Made by a program: the position numbers and the translations under genes
Notes under the pieces: generated by a model
What the model was told of the DNA's origin: nothing
Database searches by the model: none
Seen by the model: only the letters and a program-made list of their open reading frames with translations
Part shown: positions 2,039 through 31,737 of the stretch, in pieces
How positions within the stretch are numbered: the first letter of the stretch is position 1
How the letters are laid out: each line of letters begins with the position of its first letter
NCBI GenBank assembly: GCA_026416975.1
Contig: JAOAEC010000008.1
Coordinates: forward strand, 1-33,289
Origin: Patescibacteria group bacterium
GTDB lineage: Bacteria > Patescibacteriota > Microgenomatia > UBA1406 > GWC2-37-13
Direction of reading: 5' to 3'
Length of the DNA: 33,289 bases

Positions 2039-4075
2039 CTCCTTCACCCCTCTGATTCCAACTAACACCAAGCTTGAAAAACCAATCAAAATGAAAAATG
2101 TTTGCCAATTAATTGGTTGGGTTTTGAAGATTTGTTGTAAAAAAGGTTGATGAAGTAATAGTGGTTGGAGAACAAAGGGAAATATAAAAGCGATAATAAA
2201 GATTGGTTTAAATAAAAGTTTATAGTTTGAAGCAATATGGCGGTGAGAAAGAAAAAGATCAATCAGAATAAACTGCTGGATAAAAATAATCGCTGAAAAA
2301 ACAACGGTCGTATTATTTTTTATAAAAAGAGAGAATCCGGCCAAAATCATTGTTAAAAAACCAACGGAAAAGATATAATGAAAATCAACTTTATCTAATA
2401 TCTCCAATGTTTTTCTTGGTGGTTTTTCAATAATTTTTTTATCATCAGGCGCAAAAGCTAAAGAGATTGCTGGTAAGCCGTCTGTGGCGATATTAATATA
2501 TAAAAGTTGAAGGGGAGTGGGGACAGGAAGTTTAAGAAGAAGAGCGCTGATAATGTAAATTACTTCACCAATATTGCATGATAATAAATATTTAATGGCA
2601 TTTTTTATGTGAATAAAAATATTTCTTCCTTGTTCAATAGCGTCAATTAGAGTGGCAAAGTTATCATCAGTGATGATAATATGAGCCGTATCTTTGGCAA
2701 CATCAGTGCCGGTTTTTCCCATGGCCACGCCGCAGTCAGCCTGTTTTAAAGCTAAAGCGTCATTAACGCCATCGCCAGTGACTGCCACTACTTCGCCTAA
2801 TTTTTGATAAAGTTTAACCAATCGATATTTATCTTCCGGAGAAGTGCGGGCAAAAATTTTTACCTTTGGCAAAATTTTTAAAAGTTCTTGATCTGAATAT
2901 TTGTTCAAAATTTTTCCTGACAAAATATCTTCTCCTTCTTGAATAATCCCAGTTTCAATACCAACGGCTTCAGCAGTTAGTTCATTATCGCCGGTAATCA
3001 TCACCACTTTAATTCCGGCTTTTTTTGCTTTTTCAACCGCTTCTTTGACTTCTACTCTGACTGGATCAGCGATCCCAACAAAACCTAAAAAGATCTGATT
3101 TTCTTCTAAATTTTTATCATCGGTTTTTTTATAAGAAAAAGCAATCATTCGAAGACCTTTTTGGGCAAATTTTTGAAACTCTTTCTCGATCTCCTTTCTT
3201 TTAGTTGGCGTTAAAGGTTTAATCTCTTCACCAATCTGAATAAAATTTGAGATTTCCAAAATTGCCTCTGGCGCTCCTTTAGAAAAAACTAAGTTTTGAG
3301 TTTTGACATTTGAGTTTTGAGCTTTGATACTCATCCTTTTTGTCACTGCTGAAAAAGGAATTTCTTCTTCAATCTGCCATTTTTTTCGTTCTTCCTCATA
3401 GTTTATTCCCAAATCTTTGGCCATTAAAAGCAAAGCACCTTCAGTGGTGTCGCCAATGACATCCATATCGCCATGGTCAACTTTAAAAACCAAAGAAGCA
3501 GTTGAGTTAAGACATGAGTTAAGAAGAATTTTTTGAAAAGGATGATTGTTAATGTGAGGAGGAGAAGAGATATCATACTCTTTTTCATCAAGCCAGATTT
3601 TTTTTACCCGCATCTGATTCGTGGTTAAAGTCCCGGTTTTGTCAGTGGCAACTAATGTTAAAGATCCCATTGTTTCAATCGCATTAAGTTTGCGGACAAT
3701 GGTTTTTCTTTTTGCCATCCGCTCAACACCAATTGAAAGAATAATTGTCATTACCGCCGGCAGTCCTTCAGGAACAGCAGCGACCGCTAAAGAAACTGCC
3801 AAAATAAAACTTTCAACCGTGTTTTTTTCTTTAATAAAAGACAAAAGAAAAACAATCAAAGAGGCAATAATTCCGATGATTCCCAATTGTTTAGTAAAAA
3901 CCTCTAATTTTTTTTGAAGAGGCGTTTTTGCTTCTTTAATTGAGGACAAAGTTTTGGCAATCTGACCAAAACGAGTGTTTGAGCCAGTTTTTGTCACCCG
4001 CATAAACCCTCGACCGCGGGAGACAATGGTGCCGGCGTATAATTGATTGTCCATAATTTTAAATTTAAAATTCAA
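2024..4075 (-). CDS. Cation-transporting P-type ATPase, C-terminal fragment (rest of A-domain, P, N and TM domains)
   Basis: DKTGTLTTNQM, MITGDNELTAEAVG, VAVTGDGVNDALALKQADCGVAMG; starts mid A-domain 'NQLYAGTIVSRGRGFMRVTKTGSNTRFGQIA'. Confidence 0.93.
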   Translation of the reverse strand: MNFKFKIMDNQLYAGTIVSRGRGFMRVTKTGSNTRFGQIAKTLSSIKEAKTPLQKKLEVFTKQLGIIGIIASLIVFLLSFIKEKNTVESFILAVSLAVAAVPEGLPAVMTIILSIGVERMAKRKTIVRKLNAIETMGSLTLVATDKTGTLTTNQMRVKKIWLDEKEYDISSPPHINNHPFQKILLNSCLNSTASLVFKVDHGDMDVIGDTTEGALLLMAKDLGINYEEERKKWQIEEEIPFSAVTKRMSIKAQNSNVKTQNLVFSKGAPEAILEISNFIQIGEEIKPLTPTKRKEIEKEFQKFAQKGLRMIAFSYKKTDDKNLEENQIFLGFVGIADPVRVEVKEAVEKAKKAGIKVVMITGDNELTAEAVGIETGIIQEGEDILSGKILNKYSDQELLKILPKVKIFARTSPEDKYRLVKLYQKLGEVVAVTGDGVNDALALKQADCGVAMGKTGTDVAKDTAHIIITDDNFATLIDAIEQGRNIFIHIKNAIKYLLSCNIGEVIYIISALLLKLPVPTPLQLLYINIATDGLPAISLAFAPDDKKIIEKPPRKTLEILDKVDFHYIFSVGFLTMILAGFSLFIKNNTTVVFSAIIFIQQFILIDLFLSHRHIASNYKLLFKPIFIIAFIFPFVLQPLLLHQPFLQQIFKTQPINWQTFFILIGFSSLVLVGIRGVKEFLKM

Positions 4076-4522
4076 AATGTAAAAATCAAAATGACAATGT
4101 AAAATGTAAAATTTTTTTATTTTTTACCTTTTAATTTTAATAAACTACTTGCTAAAATATTAGCGATTTCATTAACTTCTTTTAAAATTTCATTAGATTG
4201 TTTGACTAAATTTTCTTCATTTACAATGTTTTGAATAATATAAATCCAATATTTGGTTTCATTTGCTGATTTTAAAGCTGTTTCAAAATAATGAATATAG
4301 TCTTTAGTTGAACTTGATGATTTTGCCTCAATTACATTAGCTCCAATTGATGTTGTTGATCGAACTAATTGATCTAATATTGAGTAAAAAATAATGTGTT
4401 TTTTTATTGATTCTGAGAATTTAATAACTTTTATTGATAAATTAATCAATCTTTTTATAAATTCCTTTTTGAATTTTTCTCTGTCATTTTGCATTTTGAT
4501 TTTTGATTTTTGAATTTTTAGT
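4065..4522 (-). mobile_element. IVS-like insertion: four-helix-bundle ORF between complementary AT-rich arms, interrupting the P-type ATPase gene
   Basis: Arms AAAATTCAAAATGTAAAAATCAAAATGACAATGTAAAATG (left, + strand) and reverse complement of right arm AAAAATTCAAAAATCAAAAATCAAAATGCAAAATG; ATPase halves on both sides. Confidence 0.7.
4117..4494 (-). CDS. Four-helix-bundle protein, 23S rRNA-intervening-sequence protein family (PF05635/TIGR02436-like)
   Basis: MQNDREKFKKEFIKRLINLSIKVIKFSESIKKHIIFYSILDQLVRSTTSIGANVIEAKSSSSTKDYIHYFETALKSANETKYWI: characteristic 'QL.RS.TSIGANI.EA' and 'F...L..A..E..YWL'. Confidence 0.92.
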   Translation of the reverse strand: MQNDREKFKKEFIKRLINLSIKVIKFSESIKKHIIFYSILDQLVRSTTSIGANVIEAKSSSSTKDYIHYFETALKSANETKYWIYIIQNIVNEENLVKQSNEILKEVNEIANILASSLLKLKGKK

Positions 4523-5050: not shown

Positions 5051-5222
5051 CTTCTTCTTGTTAAGAGCAATTTAACAACTAACATCTAACATCTAACGTC
5101 TAACACTTAACATATAACATCAACTATTAATTTCTAATTTTCAATTTTTATTAAATTCAATTTATTAATTATTAATTTATTAACTATTGAATAAAAATTG
5201 ATTTATTAGTTTATTAAAAATT
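5051..5222. repeat. Long direct repeat copy A (flanks AbiE module)
   Basis: cttcttcttgttaagagcaatttaacaactaacatctaac...ttgaataaaaattgatttattagtttattaaaaatta, closely similar to 7211-7431. Confidence 0.88.
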
Positions 5223-6595: not shown

Positions 6596-7189
6596 TTAAA
6601 AAATACCAATTTTAATTGTTTCTTCTAATGTCCACGTATTTTGATTTACTTCTAATCTCATTCCAAATTTTTCAAAGACTATTTCTAAAATAGGATTGCT
6701 AAGATTTTCGAGTAGATCAGGTACTGTTTCTAGCTCCCAAGAATTAAATTCACAAATTTTATCAGGAGTATCTCCTGTTTTTCCCATCACCTTAATCTCT
6801 CTATTTCCCATAACCATAACTTTTAATGAAATTTGAGGATTTTCGTCGTCTGTGAACTCTATTTGATATAGAGGGTCAGTAAAACCATTAGCCGCTCTTT
6901 GTTGAGGACTTTGTAAAAAACTAGTATGTGTCACTTGGTACGGATTTCCTTCTTTAGTTTTTCCTTGATAATGATTAATAACAGCATTATATGGTCTTCC
7001 TAATCCAACCATAAATCTGTCAGTTCTTTCATTAGCAGTAAGAGTAAGTGGTAACTTAACAAAGACTGTTGAAAGTTCTTGTGCAAACCAAGCTGTGCGA
7101 GATAAAACATCTTTACGTCTTTCTAAATATTCGATCATTGTTTCTCTATTTGTTTTCATTTGGGATGCTTCTGGGGGTATAGTAGACAT
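6596..7189 (-). CDS. Hypothetical protein (orphan), driven by GAA-spacer promoter
   Basis: 197-codon ORF MSTIPPEASQMKTNRETMIEYLERRKDV..., preceded by -35/-10 at 7230-7199. Confidence 0.7.
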   Translation of the reverse strand: MSTIPPEASQMKTNRETMIEYLERRKDVLSRTAWFAQELSTVFVKLPLTLTANERTDRFMVGLGRPYNAVINHYQGKTKEGNPYQVTHTSFLQSPQQRAANGFTDPLYQIEFTDDENPQISLKVMVMGNREIKVMGKTGDTPDKICEFNSWELETVPDLLENLSNPILEIVFEKFGMRLEVNQNTWTLEETIKIGIF

Positions 7190-7198
7190 AGTAATTGA

Positions 7199-7230
7199 AT
7201 TTTACTTCTTCTTCTTCTTCTTCTTGTCAA
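7199..7230 (-). promoter_or_regulatory. GAA-spacer promoter: TTGACA-(20 nt, AGAAG tract)-TAAAAT
   Basis: Minus: TTGACAAGAAGAAGAAGAAGAAGAAGTAAAATTCAATTACTATG; seven CTT units on + strand. Confidence 0.7.
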
Positions 7231-7431
7231 GAGCAATTTAACAACTAATATCTAACGTCTAACACTTAACATATAACTTATAACATATAACATCAACTAT
7301 TAATTTCTAATTTTCCCTGCCCGTAATCGCTGAAGCGATAGCTTCTGCAGGCGGGTAATTTTCAATTTCTATTAAATTATTAATTTATTAATTATTGAAT
7401 AAAAATTGATTTATTAATTTATTAAAAATTA
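7211..7431. repeat. Long direct repeat copy B, interrupted by the 40-nt palindromic element
   Basis: Same sequence as 5051-5222 with an extra 'cttataacatataa' and the 7316-7355 insertion. Confidence 0.88.
7316..7355 (+). repeat. 40-nt palindromic REP-like element, copy 2, flanked by 8-bp direct repeat TAATTTTC
   Basis: TAATTTTC|cctgcccgtaatcgctgaagcgatagcttctgcaggcggg|TAATTTTC; copy A of the long repeat has TAATTTTC once. Confidence 0.85.
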
Positions 7432-22896: not shown

Positions 22897-22916
22897 ATTT
22901 TACTTCTTCTTGTCAA
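22897..22916 (-). promoter_or_regulatory. Orphan GAA-spacer promoter-like element: TTGACA-(8 nt AGAAGAAG)-TAAAAT
   Basis: Minus: TTGACAAGAAGAAGTAAAATAAAAAAATATAATGACATAA; no downstream ORF. Confidence 0.5.
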
Positions 22917-24216: not shown

Positions 24217-24456
24217 TTAATTATTTCTTGCACTATATTCTATTCTTTTAGGACATGTTGCTTGTTGATATGTTTCTTTACAAAGGCACATACGAGGATG
24301 TTTTGAGTTAGCTAACCCACAAAAACCTACTAAAAGATCTCCATAAATTTTTTTATACTTTTCAGCAAGTATTTCAAATGCTCCATTTTCTCCATATCTT
24401 TCAACTGTTTCTTCTGGCGTTATTAAATGTACACATCCTTCACATCCATTTTTCAT
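24217..24456 (-). CDS. Small cysteine-rich hypothetical protein (start at MKNGCEGC; upstream codons in ORF track are promoter)
   Basis: MKNGCEGCVHLITPEETVERYGENGAFEILAEKYKKIYGDLLVGFCGLANSKHPRMCLCKETYQQATCPKRIEYSARNN; six Cys. Confidence 0.68.
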   Translation of the reverse strand: MKNGCEGCVHLITPEETVERYGENGAFEILAEKYKKIYGDLLVGFCGLANSKHPRMCLCKETYQQATCPKRIEYSARNN

Positions 24457-24466
24457 ATTATAGGAT

Positions 24467-24489
24467 ATTATACTTCTTCTTCTTGTCAA
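24467..24489 (-). promoter_or_regulatory. GAA-spacer promoter: TTGACA-(11 nt)-TATAAT
   Basis: Minus: TTGACAAGAAGAAGAAGTATAATATCCTATAATATGAAAAATGG. Confidence 0.6.
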
Positions 24490-24519: not shown

Positions 24520-27234
24520 ATGATTGACAAATATCAACCGCAGGAATTTGAAAAAAAATGGGTGGAGATTTGGGAGAAAGAAAAAACTTATCAAACTCGA
24601 AAACTCGTTAACTTGTCAACTCAAAAACCTAAACAATATGTTTTATCAATGTTTCCCTATCTGTCTGGTGTTGGTCTTCATGTTGGCCATGTGCGAATTT
24701 ACACTGGCACTGATGTTTTAGCCCGTTTTTTTAGGATGAATGGTTATCCAGTTCTTCATCCGATGGGCTGGGATGCTTTTGGACTACCAGCTGAAAACGC
24801 AGCCATAAAAGCTAAAAAAAATCCAATGGATATGGTGCCGGAGAATATCAAAAATTTTAAGCGCCAGATGAAGATGCTTGGATTTTCTTATGATTGGGAA
24901 AAAGAATTTTCGACAACCGACCCAGAATATTATCGATGGACGCAGTGGCTTTTTATCCAGTTTTTTAAAATGGGTCTTTTGTATAAAAAAGAAATACCAG
25001 TTTATTACTGCCCATCTTGTAAAACTGGTTTGGCAGAAGAGGAAGTTTTGCCAGACGGCACTCATGAACGCTGTGGCAAACCAATCACCAGAAAAACTCT
25101 TCCTCAATGGCTTTTTAAGATTACTTCTTATGCTGATAAACTTTTGGAAGATCTAAAAGATTTAGACTGGCCTGAAGGAATTTTGGAGATGCAAAAAAAC
25201 TGGATTGGAAAAAGCGAAGGAACGGAAATTAAATTCGAAATTCTAAATCCTAAATCCGAAACAAATTCAAAATCAAAAATTAAAAATTCTAAACAATATA
25301 TTCGGGTTTTTACAACTAGGGCTGATACTTTATTTGGAGTAACTGCTTTGGTGGTGGCGCCGGAGCATTGGTTAATTGATGAAATCCTAAATCCTAAATC
25401 CGAAATCCTAAACAAATCCCAAATCTCAAATTCTAAAATAGAAGAAATTAAAAAATATGTTGAAGAAGCAAAAAGAAAGCTAGATTTGGCAAGAACTGAT
25501 TTAGCAAAAGAAAAAACCGGGGTTGATACTGGACTAAAAGCTGTTCATCCTTTAACTGAAGAAAAAATTCCCATTTGGGTAGCTGATTATGTGATTGGTT
25601 GGTATGGCGAAGGAGCAGTGATGGTGGTGCCTGGACATGATGAACGAGATTATGAGTTTGCGAAAAAATTTAATTTACCAATAAAACAAGTAATAATAAA
25701 CGCAAAACGCAATCCGCCAACTGGCGGACAAAACTCAAAACTAAATCAAAACTTAAGCAAAGCTTTTACTGATTATGGAATTTTGATAAATTCTGGTGAG
25801 TTTTCAGGATTGACTTCAAAAGAAGCCATAGAAAAAATAACAGAAAAATTACAATCGTTAAATTTAGGTCAAAAAAAAATAACTTATAAACTTCGCGATT
25901 GGATTTTTTCAAGACAACGCTATTGGGGTGAGCCGATACCGATGATTTTTTGCGCAAATTGCGCAAAAAATCAAGCTCAAAATTCAAAGTTCAAAGTTCA
26001 AAATAAAATGTATGGTTGGTTTCCTGTTTCAGAAAATGAGCTACCTTTAAAACTCCCTTATATCAAATCATACGAACCAACTGAGACCGGCGAGTCACCT
26101 CTGGCAAAAATTTCTGAGTTTGTTAATACTACCTGTCCAAACTGCGGTGGACCGGCCAAAAGAGAGACAGACACAATGCCAAACTGGGCTGGCTCCTGTT
26201 GGTACTTTTTAGCTTTTGCTTTTTCAAAAGCTTTAAATTCTAAATCCAAAATTCCAAATTCTAAACAATCTCAAAATTCTAATGACAAAAATTCAAAAAG
26301 TTTTGAAAATTTAAATTTTAAAAATTCGGATTTATTTAGGATTTGGAATTTAGAGTTTAGTGCTTCATTAAAACATTGGCTTCCGGTTGACTGGTATTTG
26401 GGAGGAGCAGAACATGCAGTTTTACATCTTTTGTATTCCCGCTTTTGGGTGAAAGCTTTGTATGATTTGGGGCTACTTGATTTTAAAGAACCGTTTTTAA
26501 GGTTAAGAAATGTTGGTATGGTTTTGGCTGAGGATCATCGGAAAATGAGCAAAAGTTTTGGCAATGTCATTAATCCTGATGATGTAGTTGCTGAGTATGG
26601 CGCTGATGCTTTGCGTCTTTATGAGATGTTTATGGCACCATTTTCATCTGAGATTGCCTGGTCAACAAAAGCTTTGCAGGGTTGTTATCGGTTTTTAAAA
26701 AGAGTCTGGGAGACATATCAAAAGTTAGAAGTTAAAAATCAAAAGTTAAAAGTTGAAGAAGATAAAGAGTTAGTGGCGAAATTAAACAAAACTATTAAAA
26801 AAGTGACTGAGGATATTGGACAGATTAAATTTAATACTGCTATTGCTTCAATGATGGAATTTTTAAATGAATATGAAAAAAAACCGCAAGAATTATCAAA
26901 AGAAAACGCAAAAAAGTTTTTGCAGATTTTAGCGCCGTTTGCGCCGTTTTTAACTGAGGAGATCTGGAGAGAAGTTTTTGGAGAAAAAGAGTCGATTCAT
27001 TTATCAAAATGGCCTCAGGCTGAAGAGGTAGAGGAGAGCGAGATTATTATTCCGGTGCAGGTGAATGGAAAATTAAGGGGTACAATAAAAGTCAAAAGTC
27101 AAAAGTCAAAAGTCAAAAGTTATATTGAAGCGGAGGTTCTTAAACAAGAAAAAATAAAAAAATATCTTCAAGGAAAAAAATACAAGATGATTTATGTTGA
27201 AGGAAAGGTGGTGAATTTGGTGGTTGGAAGTTAA
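24520..27234 (+). CDS. leuS: Leucyl-tRNA synthetase (start at MIDKYQPQEF)
   Basis: 'YLSGVGLHVGHVRIYTGTDVLARFFRMNGYPVLHPMGWDAFGLPAENAA', 'WIGKSEG', 'HRKMSKSFGNVINPDD'. Confidence 0.96.
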   Translation: MIDKYQPQEFEKKWVEIWEKEKTYQTRKLVNLSTQKPKQYVLSMFPYLSGVGLHVGHVRIYTGTDVLARFFRMNGYPVLHPMGWDAFGLPAENAAIKAKKNPMDMVPENIKNFKRQMKMLGFSYDWEKEFSTTDPEYYRWTQWLFIQFFKMGLLYKKEIPVYYCPSCKTGLAEEEVLPDGTHERCGKPITRKTLPQWLFKITSYADKLLEDLKDLDWPEGILEMQKNWIGKSEGTEIKFEILNPKSETNSKSKIKNSKQYIRVFTTRADTLFGVTALVVAPEHWLIDEILNPKSEILNKSQISNSKIEEIKKYVEEAKRKLDLARTDLAKEKTGVDTGLKAVHPLTEEKIPIWVADYVIGWYGEGAVMVVPGHDERDYEFAKKFNLPIKQVIINAKRNPPTGGQNSKLNQNLSKAFTDYGILINSGEFSGLTSKEAIEKITEKLQSLNLGQKKITYKLRDWIFSRQRYWGEPIPMIFCANCAKNQAQNSKFKVQNKMYGWFPVSENELPLKLPYIKSYEPTETGESPLAKISEFVNTTCPNCGGPAKRETDTMPNWAGSCWYFLAFAFSKALNSKSKIPNSKQSQNSNDKNSKSFENLNFKNSDLFRIWNLEFSASLKHWLPVDWYLGGAEHAVLHLLYSRFWVKALYDLGLLDFKEPFLRLRNVGMVLAEDHRKMSKSFGNVINPDDVVAEYGADALRLYEMFMAPFSSEIAWSTKALQGCYRFLKRVWETYQKLEVKNQKLKVEEDKELVAKLNKTIKKVTEDIGQIKFNTAIASMMEFLNEYEKKPQELSKENAKKFLQILAPFAPFLTEEIWREVFGEKESIHLSKWPQAEEVEESEIIIPVQVNGKLRGTIKVKSQKSKVKSYIEAEVLKQEKIKKYLQGKKYKMIYVEGKVVNLVVGS
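25234..25300. repeat. In-frame heptad-repeat insert 1 in leuS
   Basis: ttcgaaattctaaatcctaaatccgaaacaaattcaaaatcaaaaattaaaaattctaaacaa (FEILNPKSETNSKSKIKNSKQ). Confidence 0.85.
25381..25440. repeat. In-frame heptad-repeat insert 2 in leuS
   Basis: gaaatcctaaatcctaaatccgaaatcctaaacaaatcccaaatctcaaattctaaaata (EILNPKSEILNKSQISNSKI). Confidence 0.88.
25697..25760. repeat. In-frame insert 3 in leuS with hairpin TCCGCCA-AC-TGGCGGA
   Basis: aataaacgcaaaacgcaatccgccaactggcggacaaaactcaaaactaaatcaaaactt (NAKRNPPTGGQNSKLNQNL). Confidence 0.8.
25944..25972. repeat. Perfect 29-nt palindrome in leuS (14-bp arms, 1-nt centre)
   Basis: GATTTTTTGCGCAA A TTGCGCAAAAAATC. Confidence 0.95.
26230..26365. repeat. 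In-frame insert in leuS with inverted heptad arms
   Basis: taaattctaaatccaaaattccaaattctaaacaa ... ttcggatttatttaggatttggaatttagagttta. Confidence 0.8.
27088..27122. repeat. Tandem heptamer GTCAAAA in leuS C-terminus
   Basis: aaagtcaaaagtcaaaagtcaaaagtcaaaagtt (IKVKSQKSKVKS). Confidence 0.92.
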
Positions 27235-28213: not shown

Positions 28214-28239
28214 TTTATACCTTTTCTTCTTCTTGTCAA
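28214..28239 (-). promoter_or_regulatory. Orphan GAA-spacer promoter-like element: TTGACA-(14 nt)-TATAAA
   Basis: Minus: TTGACAAGAAGAAGAAAAGGTATAAATTAAATC; no ORF downstream. Confidence 0.4.
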
Positions 28240-28288: not shown

Positions 28289-29423
28289 ATGTACTCCAGA
28301 TTGATTAGAATGCCGGAAAAAACCATTTTTTTTCTTTTTTGGTCCAAGAGGAACAGGAAAAACAACCTGGGTAAAAACAAATTTTCCTGAAAGCCTTTAT
28401 TTAGATCTTCTTAATGCTGAAAATTATACTTATCTTTTAGCTAATCCTTCTCGTCTTGAAGAATTAATTCCTCCAAATTTTTCCCAATGGATTATTATTG
28501 ATGAAATTCAAAAAATACCTTCTCTTTTAGATGAAGTTCACCGGCTAATTGAAGAAAAGCACTATAAATTTATTCTTACTGGTTCTTCTGCCAGAAAACT
28601 TCGCCGGGGCGGTTTTAATTTATTGGCCGGTCGGGCTTTAGTAAAAAATCTTTATCCTTTAATAGCTCAGGAATTAGGCAAAGATTTTAATTTTAACAAT
28701 TATCTTCGCTTTGGCGGACTGCCGGGAGTACTTTTTGCCGAAGACAAAAAAGCATTTTTAAAAAGCTATATCAAAACTTATTTAGAGCAGGAAATCATTT
28801 GGGAGGCAATTACAAGAAATTTATCAGCGTTTAGCCGTTTTTTGGAAGTGGCGAGTTTTTCTCAAGGATCAGTTTTAAATATGTTGGAAGTAGCTCGAGA
28901 AGCAAATTTAGGCAGAAGAATGGTAGAAAACTATTTTTCTGCTTTGGAGGATTTGTTAATTGGAGTAAGAATTCCGGTTTTTTCCAAAAGAGCCAAAAGA
29001 AGATTGGTAGCTCATCGAAAATTTTATTTTTTTGATGTTGGAGTTTATTAGATATTAAGACCGCGCGGTCCTTTTGATCAAGAAGAGTTTGTTGGCGGTG
29101 TTGCTTTAGAAACAGTTTTTTTGCAAAATTTGCAAGCTTTAATTGATTATTTAAATTTAGATTATCAACTATATTACTACCGGACTTTAAGTGGTAATGA
29201 GGTTGATTTTATTCTTTATGGGAAAAAAGGAATAAAAGCTTTTGAGGTCAAAAGCAAAAGAGAAATAACCCCCCTTGATTTAAAAGGACTAAAAAGTTTT
29301 TTAGCTGATTATCCAGAGGCGAAAGGCTATTTAATCTATGGAGGAAAAACAAAACGTTATTTTGAAAAAATTGAGGTTTGGCCGGCTGAAGAAGCATTAA
29401 AGTCGTTGAAAAAGATATTATAA
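28289..29423 (+). pseudogene. DUF4143-type AAA+ ATPase pseudogene (T-tract frameshift and in-frame TAG)
   Basis: MYSRLIRMPEKTIFFLF/GPRGTGKTTWVKTNFPESLYLDLL..WIIIDEIQKIPSLLDEVHRLIEE..FILTGSSARKLRRGG..LLAGRALVKNLYPL..FFDVGVY*ILRPRGPFD..GNEVDFILYGKKGIKAFEVKSKRE. Confidence 0.88.
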
Positions 29424-29549: not shown

Positions 29550-30434
29550 TTAATTAAAAGCGTTAAGAAGAGCTTCTGCTTTCTTCTTTTTCCCTTCAGG
29601 TAAATAGGGTAAGTCCACAATTTCTTCTAATGCCGTTTTTATTTTGTCTCGATTATCCCCATTTATTCTAGAAATATTCCTACCGAAATCTGATGATAAG
29701 AAATCTTCTGCGGGTGTTACTGCGGCGCATTGTAAAAGAACTACTACTCTCTCAAACCATTCGTCAGCTCCCTGAGGTAATAATCCATTTTCAATCTTTC
29801 CTCTTATTTTCTCAAGCGCAATTGATATATTTGTTTCATGTTCTGAGGGTGAAAGTGTTTGTAGGTTTATTCCTTCTATTTCTTTTGTTTGCCTTGATAT
29901 TTCTAAGATTTTATTGATAGGTGTTCCTGAAGCAATTGAAGCACACAGGTAATCAAGAGATCTTGCTAAATCAAAGGTTTTTCCGTCGTTTACCTCTTTC
30001 ATTATTTTTCTGATAATAAAATTTGATGTCTCGAAGGCAGAATCGCCCGCAATATAACTGACCCCAGGCAAATAACCTCCTTTTCTCATCGTTTGTGGGT
30101 TATATTCAATTCCACAAAGTTCACATATACCAATAACTAATTCAGGCGCACCCCAATATGTTTTGTCAGCATAAGGAAATTCAAGCAATTTAGAATAAGG
30201 CGGTTTAATTTCAATTCCTGCCTCTCTCAATTTTTTTGCTTGTATTGCTGAATCCAAACTCCAGCTTGCAAGACCTGCTTCTTGAATAATTGCGTAACTA
30301 ACAGGGGTTCCTTCACCTTCAGAAGAAGGAAAAATTTCATTTACTCTTTCTATTAATTGTTTTTCAAAAGGATTCAGTTGAAAAGATGAAAGTTTTCTCC
30401 CATCTACTTTTACTTCATCTGGTGTGGGTTCCAT
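29550..30434 (-). CDS. Hypothetical protein (orphan); start at MEPTPDE
   Basis: Long ORF; the annotated 30506 start translates the promoter ('CIFFPLTRRRRRSK'). Confidence 0.75.
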   Translation of the reverse strand: MEPTPDEVKVDGRKLSSFQLNPFEKQLIERVNEIFPSSEGEGTPVSYAIIQEAGLASWSLDSAIQAKKLREAGIEIKPPYSKLLEFPYADKTYWGAPELVIGICELCGIEYNPQTMRKGGYLPGVSYIAGDSAFETSNFIIRKIMKEVNDGKTFDLARSLDYLCASIASGTPINKILEISRQTKEIEGINLQTLSPSEHETNISIALEKIRGKIENGLLPQGADEWFERVVVLLQCAAVTPAEDFLSSDFGRNISRINGDNRDKIKTALEEIVDLPYLPEGKKKKAEALLNAFN

Positions 30435-30441
30435 TTTTTTC

Positions 30442-30470
30442 ATTTTACTTCTTCTTCTTCTTCTTGTCAA
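30442..30470 (-). promoter_or_regulatory. GAA-spacer promoter: TTGACA-(17 nt)-TAAAAT
   Basis: Minus: TTGACAAGAAGAAGAAGAAGAAGTAAAATGAAAAAAATGGAA; six CTT units on + strand. Confidence 0.78.
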
Positions 30471-30487: not shown

Positions 30488-30516
30488 TTGACTTTACTTT
30501 TGACAAGGGATAAAAT
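30488..30516 (+). promoter_or_regulatory. Promoter TTGACT-N17-TAAAAT, 9 nt from ATG (leaderless), divergent to the GAA promoter
   Basis: ttgactttacttttgacaagggataaaatataagtaatATG. Confidence 0.7.
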
Positions 30517-30525
30517 ATAAGTAAT

Positions 30526-31737
30526 ATGGAAGAAAAAATTTACAAAAGAAAAATTTTTGACGAGATTGTCCAATATCTGGAAACGCGAAATATTGTTGTC
30601 ATTCATGGAGCTAGACAAGTAGGCAAGACTTATCTTTTGTATGATATTGAGAAATATTTAAAGAAAAAGAATAAAAAAACATTTTATTTAGATTTAGAGG
30701 ATTCAAGGGTTTTGGAGATTTTAAATCAAGGAGTAGAGTCGTTTTTAAATTTTTTAAAGGCAGAGGGCGCCTCCTTTGATAAAAAAACTTATGTTTTAAT
30801 TGATGAGATACAATATCTTGAGAATCCGTCTTCCTTTTTAAAGTTAATTTATGATCATTATCCTTATCTTCAACTAATTGTTTCCGGCTCCTCAAGTTTC
30901 GAGATTAGATCAAAGTTTAAAGACAGTTTGGTTGGCCGGACCGTCAACTTTGAGCTTTTTCCTTTGAGTTTTCAAGAATTTTTAGTCTTTAAAGAAAAAA
31001 AAATTGACTTAAAAACAAAATTAACCACTTATCATCTAGATTTATTAATAAATTATTATCACGAATATTTATGGTATGGTGGTTATCCTAAAATAGTTTT
31101 AGAGCCTGATGTAAATAAAAAAGAAAAATATCTTCAACAAATCATTGATACTTATATCAAAAAAGATATTCGCGACTTAGCTAATATTAAAGAAATTCAT
31201 AAATTTAATCAGTTAATAAAAATTTTAGCTTCGCAAAGTGGCCAGCTATTAAACATTGCGGAAATCTCAAGGGTTATCAGCTTATCAAAACAAACAATAG
31301 AGAACTATCTTTTTCTTTTGGAAAACACTTATATTATTAAACTTATCTCTCCTTACTCAACCTCAGCTAAAATTGAGGTTTCAAAAAAACCAAAGATATT
31401 TTTTTATGACAGCGGCATCTTACAAATGCTGGTTTTTAAAAAATTAACCCAGAGCTTTTTAGGAAGTGTTTTTGAAACCAGTATTTTCTCTCAATTGGTA
31501 AAAAAATACGGAAGGAAAAATATCTTTTATTGGCGGAATAAAAATCAAAAAGAGGTTGACTTTATTATTCACAAAAAAGATAAGTTAATACCGGTAGAAG
31601 CAAAATTAAATTTTACTGGCTTTAATTTGAGGACGATGGGGGCTTTTTGTCGGAAATACAAAATTAAAGATTTTGTTATTGTTGGTTTAGGAAAAGAAAA
31701 AGATAGAGAGTATTATAAATGGCCGTGGGAGATTTAA
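30526..31737 (+). CDS. AAA+ ATPase with DUF4143-type C-terminal domain
   Basis: VIHGARQVGKTYLL, YVLIDEIQYLENP, LIVSGSSSFEI, 'YWRNKNQKEVDFIIHKKDKLIPVEAK'. Confidence 0.94.
   Translation: MEEKIYKRKIFDEIVQYLETRNIVVIHGARQVGKTYLLYDIEKYLKKKNKKTFYLDLEDSRVLEILNQGVESFLNFLKAEGASFDKKTYVLIDEIQYLENPSSFLKLIYDHYPYLQLIVSGSSSFEIRSKFKDSLVGRTVNFELFPLSFQEFLVFKEKKIDLKTKLTTYHLDLLINYYHEYLWYGGYPKIVLEPDVNKKEKYLQQIIDTYIKKDIRDLANIKEIHKFNQLIKILASQSGQLLNIAEISRVISLSKQTIENYLFLLENTYIIKLISPYSTSAKIEVSKKPKIFFYDSGILQMLVFKKLTQSFLGSVFETSIFSQLVKKYGRKNIFYWRNKNQKEVDFIIHKKDKLIPVEAKLNFTGFNLRTMGAFCRKYKIKDFVIVGLGKEKDREYYKWPWEI

Follow-up and report, generated by a model that had tools for sequence, protein, structure and literature searches.

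The minus-strand promoter at positions 30442-30470 of the window (the whole analysed stretch of 33,289 nucleotides) belongs to what is, judged from sequence, a real, conserved and lineage-specific family of predicted sigma-70-type promoters in which a GAA microsatellite forms the entire spacer between the -35 and -10 boxes. The best reading of this family, and in our view a reasonably probable one, is a set of phase-variable promoters of the spacer type, i.e., similar to Haemophilus hif with a trinucleotide unit. A phase-variable promoter family had been proposed in an earlier note on this DNA. The anatomy of the sites, the orphan genes behind them, the length differences between homologous loci and the failure to find a true MutS in carrier genomes all speak for that proposal, while its attribute 'genome-wide' did not hold.

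For the focal site, the described minus-strand promoter with its all-GAA 17-nt spacer and near ATG is found in the sequence as claimed. TTGACA (30470-30465) is preceded by CCCC and followed by the spacer AGAAGAAGAAGAAGAAG, i.e., (AGA)5AG, at 30464-30448 and by TAAAAT at 30447-30442. After gaaaaaa, an ATG follows at 30434, and a second in-frame ATG overlaps the end of the -10 box. An ordinary promoter of normal architecture (TTGACT-17-TAAAAT, 30488-30516, plus strand) lies divergently and serves a DUF4143 ATPase gene at 30526-31737. The related copies with spacers of 20, 14, 11 and 8 nt are present as well, and all five window sites are on the minus strand. They are located at 7199-7230 (20-nt spacer (AGA)6AG, TAAAAT), 28214-28239 (degenerate, spacer 14, AGAAGAAGAAAAGG with TATAAA), 24467-24489 (11-nt spacer, TATAAT, divergent from leuS with its true start at 24520) and 22897-22916 (two units left, spacer 8). 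The copies at 22897-22916 and 28214-28239 look decayed, and there is no ORF behind either. In SKW283, the counterpart of the former has a spacer of 20 nt (six units) and an intact 98-aa ORF; loss of the gene after the tract had shrunk beyond recovery would account for the two units without a gene. The latter copy is downstream of leuS, and its position matches promoters in G030 (spacer 20) and G067 (spacer 23). Both the hexamer plus AG (TTGACAAG, 7 vs. 1.2 expected) and the AGA tract (AGAAGAAGAAG, 8 vs. 0.02 expected) occur more often than in shuffled sequence, from which the expectations were taken.

Within the window's family of genomes, we searched for the tract plus -10 box (AGAAGAAGAAGTAWAAT; (AGA)nAG-TAWAAT) without requiring a -35 box, which yielded 67 sites. 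A -35 box is found flush against the tract start in 62/67 of them (TTGACA 40, TTGAAA 12, TTGCAA 9, TTGATA 1), and for four of the remaining five, TTGACA is visible a few bases further out. An ORF of at least 40 aa follows 64/67 sites, compared to 17% of random places in the same loci, and an ATG is located 6-12 nt past the -10 box for 49/67 (random places 2%). The spacers are nearly all pure GAA over 3-8 units, although the scan would have accepted any bases there. Ordinary promoters of the genome show YCNC, TTGACA, TAAAAT and an ATG 6-9 nt later, i.e., they belong to leaderless genes. The GAA sites, usually with a YCNC block ahead of the -35 box, share all features of this ordinary leaderless promoter of the lineage (YC-rich block, TTGACA-like -35, TAWAAT, ATG at 6-12 nt) except the spacer. 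At a few sites, a 30-40 nt leader with AGGAGG takes the place of the near ATG, as expected if transcription starts just past the -10 box. Upstream of the GAA sites no conservation is found beyond the YCNC block, and downstream there is little. The flush -35 boxes and the near-zero counts of reversed-pattern controls support the claim that these are true promoters of one family whose entire spacer is a GAA microsatellite.

The draft genome of the source organism (671,785 bases, 43 contigs, 78% complete) contains six TTGACAAGAAGAAG sites, of which five are in the window contig and one, with spacer 23, is on contig C20. The term 'genome-wide' is wrong because the draft has just this one site beyond the window contig; the trait is lineage-wide instead. 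A broad scan over 264 Gb of species genomes (pattern TTGACAAGAAGAAGAAG-N0-12-TAWAAT) returned 44 stretches, nearly all from Ca. Roizmanbacteria or unnamed Microgenomates, with a few matches in Woese- and Shapirobacteria; about three isolated matches elsewhere look like chance. Among the 73 genomes of the window's family, the TTGACA form and the tract-plus-minus-10 form are each found in 24, and 26 carry either form, while the reversed-pattern controls gave 0 and 1 matches, respectively. In a sample of the class, 13/385 genomes show matches, all but two from the window's family. The GAA-spacer promoter is a feature of Ca. Roizmanbacteria and of Microgenomates close to them. On the coding strand the repeat unit is GAA throughout, and no spacers built from other repeat units were found in the sequence searched. 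A phage origin was considered and rejected, i.e., the scan of viral contigs gave only one family of (marine) phage coding sequence.

We also compared spacer lengths. Ordinary promoters closely before an ORF (from G000 and G080) have spacers of 16-19 nt in 18/22 cases with a peak at 17-18. For 65 GAA sites, we observe lengths of 11 (12 sites), 14 (15), 17 (19), 20 (14), 23 (3), 26 (1) and 38 (1), such that 19/65 are within 16-19 (Fisher p = 3e-5 vs. ordinary promoters). Tract length should matter because the ordinary promoters of the host prefer one spacing. The multiples of three carry no weight on their own, since fixed tract ends already produce the mod-3 pattern, as the note correctly remarked. 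Several interrupted spacers, a small sample, total 17 nt (AGAAAA+11, AAAAAA+11 and AAA+14, among others) and are presumably locked. Among TTGACA sites with spacer 11, the ORF is still present in 8/8, and the window copy with two units has lost its gene. The longest tract (G074:C10:12322, L323) has a spacer of 38 nt (12 units) and an ORF 38 nt downstream. At G058:C51:12444-15041 (L311), three genes in one orientation, spaced by about 1.3 kb, have their own GAA promoters with spacers 14, 17 and 17; their N-termini look similar, yet stay below the BLAST cut-off.

Between homologous downstream genes, which stem from different species, paralogues or bins, the spacer differs in 6/7 pairs, namely 23/17, 11/14, 14/20, 17/11 (downstream proteins 60% identical), 14/17 (paralogues within one genome) and again 11/14; one of the two 11/14 pairs is the window vs. 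SKW283, and the seventh pair is equal at 14/14. For ordinary orthologous promoters of G000 and G080, the spacing agrees within about 1 nt in those few cases that can be read. A search with the C-terminal domain MutS_V gave true MutS ORFs in 8/73 family genomes and none in the 26 carriers, the genomes being incomplete drafts. The probability of no overlap is 0.023, uncorrected for phylogeny, by which the association is confounded. The MutS_V match of G063, a 1183-aa ORF with two matches, is probably UvrA and not MutS.

With regard to the genes behind the promoters, the note's statement that they encode orphan proteins is borne out by 34/36 tested downstream proteins for which no convincing family was found (E 0.01). 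The exceptions are two radical SAM proteins; otherwise there are marginal matches only. The 67 downstream proteins have a median length of 95 aa and form 61 clusters, 55 of which are singletons. Behind the focal promoter, the orphan gene at 29550-30434 (minus strand) encodes 294 aa without a match in Pfam, PHROG or NCBIfam. Its product is found full-length only in this genome (1/73 family genomes), with one weak 50-residue match besides. The 197-aa product of the orphan gene at 6596-7189 (minus strand, behind the 7199-7230 promoter) has one weak homologue, in G030 (30% identity). Single-sequence structure models of these two proteins are unusable (mean pLDDT 41). The promoter at 24467-24489 precedes an orphan gene of 79 aa (MKNGCEG..., 24217-24456, minus strand), whose SKW283 homologue is 65% identical and has a promoter with spacer 14. 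For this gene, dN/dS is about 1.3 (few sites), compared to 0.13-0.32 for its AbiE-like neighbours and 0.1 for leuS; it would thus appear to evolve fast while its ORF is kept open. Elsewhere in the window, two adjacent ORFs in different frames at 28623-29423 both match DUF4143, i.e., they are a broken ATPase gene, with intact relatives at 370-1521 and 30526-31737.

The gene behind a GAA promoter seems exchangeable between relatives because homology often breaks at the promoter. The segment 22882-24495, which holds an AbiE-like pair plus the 79-aa gene, corresponds to C50:359-1975 of SKW283. We take it as a sign of recent horizontal transfer because its identity is 92% (core 94%) vs. a genome median of 72%. 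Both of its ends are at GAA promoters, and on one side it is flanked by leuS here and by murI in SKW283. The leuS-side promoter has different genes behind it in C42 vs. C20/G030, and G030 and G067 differ in the gene behind the promoter downstream of leuS. Three SKW283 contigs have a transposase remnant plus promoter in common (97-98%) and continue with three unrelated genes; two of them branch after exactly 141 shared bases, which is the assembler's k-mer. In the comparison with integron-like systems, this IS-type remnant in SKW283 is all that was seen: no recombinase lies beside the window sites, and there is no conserved cassette end. The simplest account of the breaks is homologous recombination through the promoter repeats of 30-40 bp together with horizontal transfer, and bin contamination and assembly effects may contribute to them. 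At a contig end (G000:C20:5346-5618) there is another 5' end of leuS, with 86% identity to the one in the window; the bin probably contains a second species.

Among known systems, the (TA)n promoter of Haemophilus influenzae hifA/hifB (PMC3899988) and the poly-G spacer of Neisseria meningitidis porA (PMC2651432) are the closest in layout, i.e., a simple repeat is placed between -35 and -10 and its length sets the spacing. The GAA sites share this placement, in a host whose polymerase prefers one spacing (16-19 nt, peak 17-18, at ordinary promoters). They differ in the trinucleotide unit, which fills the whole spacer and gives 3-nt steps, and in the dozens of unrelated leaderless genes they precede in many species of uncultured Patescibacteria. 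The vlhA genes of Mycoplasma gallisepticum have the GAA unit in common, and their repeat number varies among orthologues and strains (PMC6258824). However, the vlhA repeats sit some 40 nt ahead of the transcription start, are active with 12 units and govern a single surface lipoprotein family, whereas here the tract is between the boxes and precedes 67 proteins in 61 clusters. Changes in the number of TAAA repeats of Neisseria meningitidis nadA also alter the spacing of promoter elements (PMC2791445, PMC3899988), but there the TAAA tract precedes the core promoter, and the NadR repressor mediates its effect. Ordinary leaderless promoters of the same genomes have, in contrast, arbitrary-sequence spacers of 16-19 nt. 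In the open-access literature searched, we found no report of phase-variable promoters in the Candidate Phyla Radiation and nothing relevant on phase variation or promoters in the Roizmanbacteria lineage. A variable repeat gene in a Gracilibacterium was discarded as a precedent since it is a different phenomenon.

Under the phase-variable reading, the sites would be sigma-70-type promoters of the leaderless class (YCNC-TTGACA, spacer, TAAAAT, ATG about 6-12 nt later) with a spacer of GAA units. Polymerase slippage on the pure tract, in cells without MutS, would add or remove units and move the spacer in 3-nt steps through 8, 11, 14, 17, 20, 23 and 26. With five units the spacer reaches 17 nt, as in ordinary promoters of these genomes; four or six would result in weak, other numbers in little or no transcription. 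Each site would thus switch one small lineage-specific gene on its own, and over evolutionary time the promoter would stay while the gene behind it is replaced. Slippage within a population, length-dependent transcription, reversibility and a benefit of the variation are what we infer. Against phase variation, only 19/65 sites are at 17, i.e., spacing might matter less than assumed, and a tract of 3-4 units offers little length for trinucleotide slippage to work efficiently.

One rival idea is that of a co-regulated family (regulon), which we consider unlikely. Here, the GAA tract would be the recognition element of a regulator or a matter of DNA shape, and different spacer lengths would be tolerated or compensated, with length drifting neutrally. 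It would fit that the tract is kept over large divergence before 61 different protein clusters, that most sites are not at 17 and those at 11 keep their ORFs, and that only coding-strand GAA is used with no other repeat-built spacer seen in the sequence searched. On the other hand, the ordinary promoters in these genomes keep closely to 16-19, no candidate regulator was identified, and we know of no length-tolerant mode from 11 to 26 nt for sigma-70 with unchanged -35 and -10 boxes. Even less probable, given the flush -35 boxes (62/67) and the near-zero reversed controls, is that a microsatellite arisen by chance, or a feature of coding sequence or of translation initiation (purine-rich leader), has been taken for a promoter. 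GAA tracts do also occur in coding sequence and one phage coding sequence matched the pattern, but this explanation is refuted in the main and has hardly any probability left. A Shine-Dalgarno role of the tract was dismissed since it is at least 14 nt from the ATG, which is too far, and some sites have a separate AGGAGG. The coding reading CTT GAC AAG AAG ... TAA (LDKKKK-stop) was dropped as well: the upstream sequence is coding only in the transposase-remnant copies of SKW283 and elsewhere is non-coding or contains divergent genes.

A further explanation, compatible with phase variation though improbable in itself, treats the sites as junctions of recombination and gene exchange, i.e., near-identical short promoter repeats would swap segments by homologous recombination and offer a ready promoter to incoming genes. 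The segment 22882-24495, bounded by GAA promoters on either side and set among different neighbours (92% vs. median 72%), the three SKW283 contigs with the same remnant and promoter before unrelated genes, and the differing genes at the two promoters around leuS are in accordance with it. Promoter pairs within contigs are co-oriented in the window, G030, L101 and L107, but G058:C54 has both orientations. Furthermore, neither a recombinase nor a conserved end or cassette boundary came to light, contigs of MAGs may be chimeras, C20 may come from another species of the bin, and the excess of contig ends near the sites is modest (12 observed vs. 5.5 expected).

Returning to phase variation, a tentative and rather doubtful extension is a contingency system across the lineage in a likely episymbiotic candidate phylum. 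Standard promoters with a trinucleotide tuning tract would serve as a fixed landing place, such that exchanged lineage-specific small genes become phase-variable on arrival. If phase variation itself is confirmed, it would amount to bet-hedging gene expression in very small genomes. With the tag of tract, -10 box and ATG, one could then recognise dozens of small genes that would otherwise escape notice and that perhaps act towards a host or rival, and the spacers from 8 to 38 nt would provide a natural promoter series for how polymerase reads spacing.

Beside the GAA sites, short tandem arrays with a 7-base period are numerous in the window, most of them between genes (e.g., 1701-1763, 4055-4114, 5073-5121, 7239-7293, 25382-25437 and 27087-27120), some of which are common to other contigs and SKW283.
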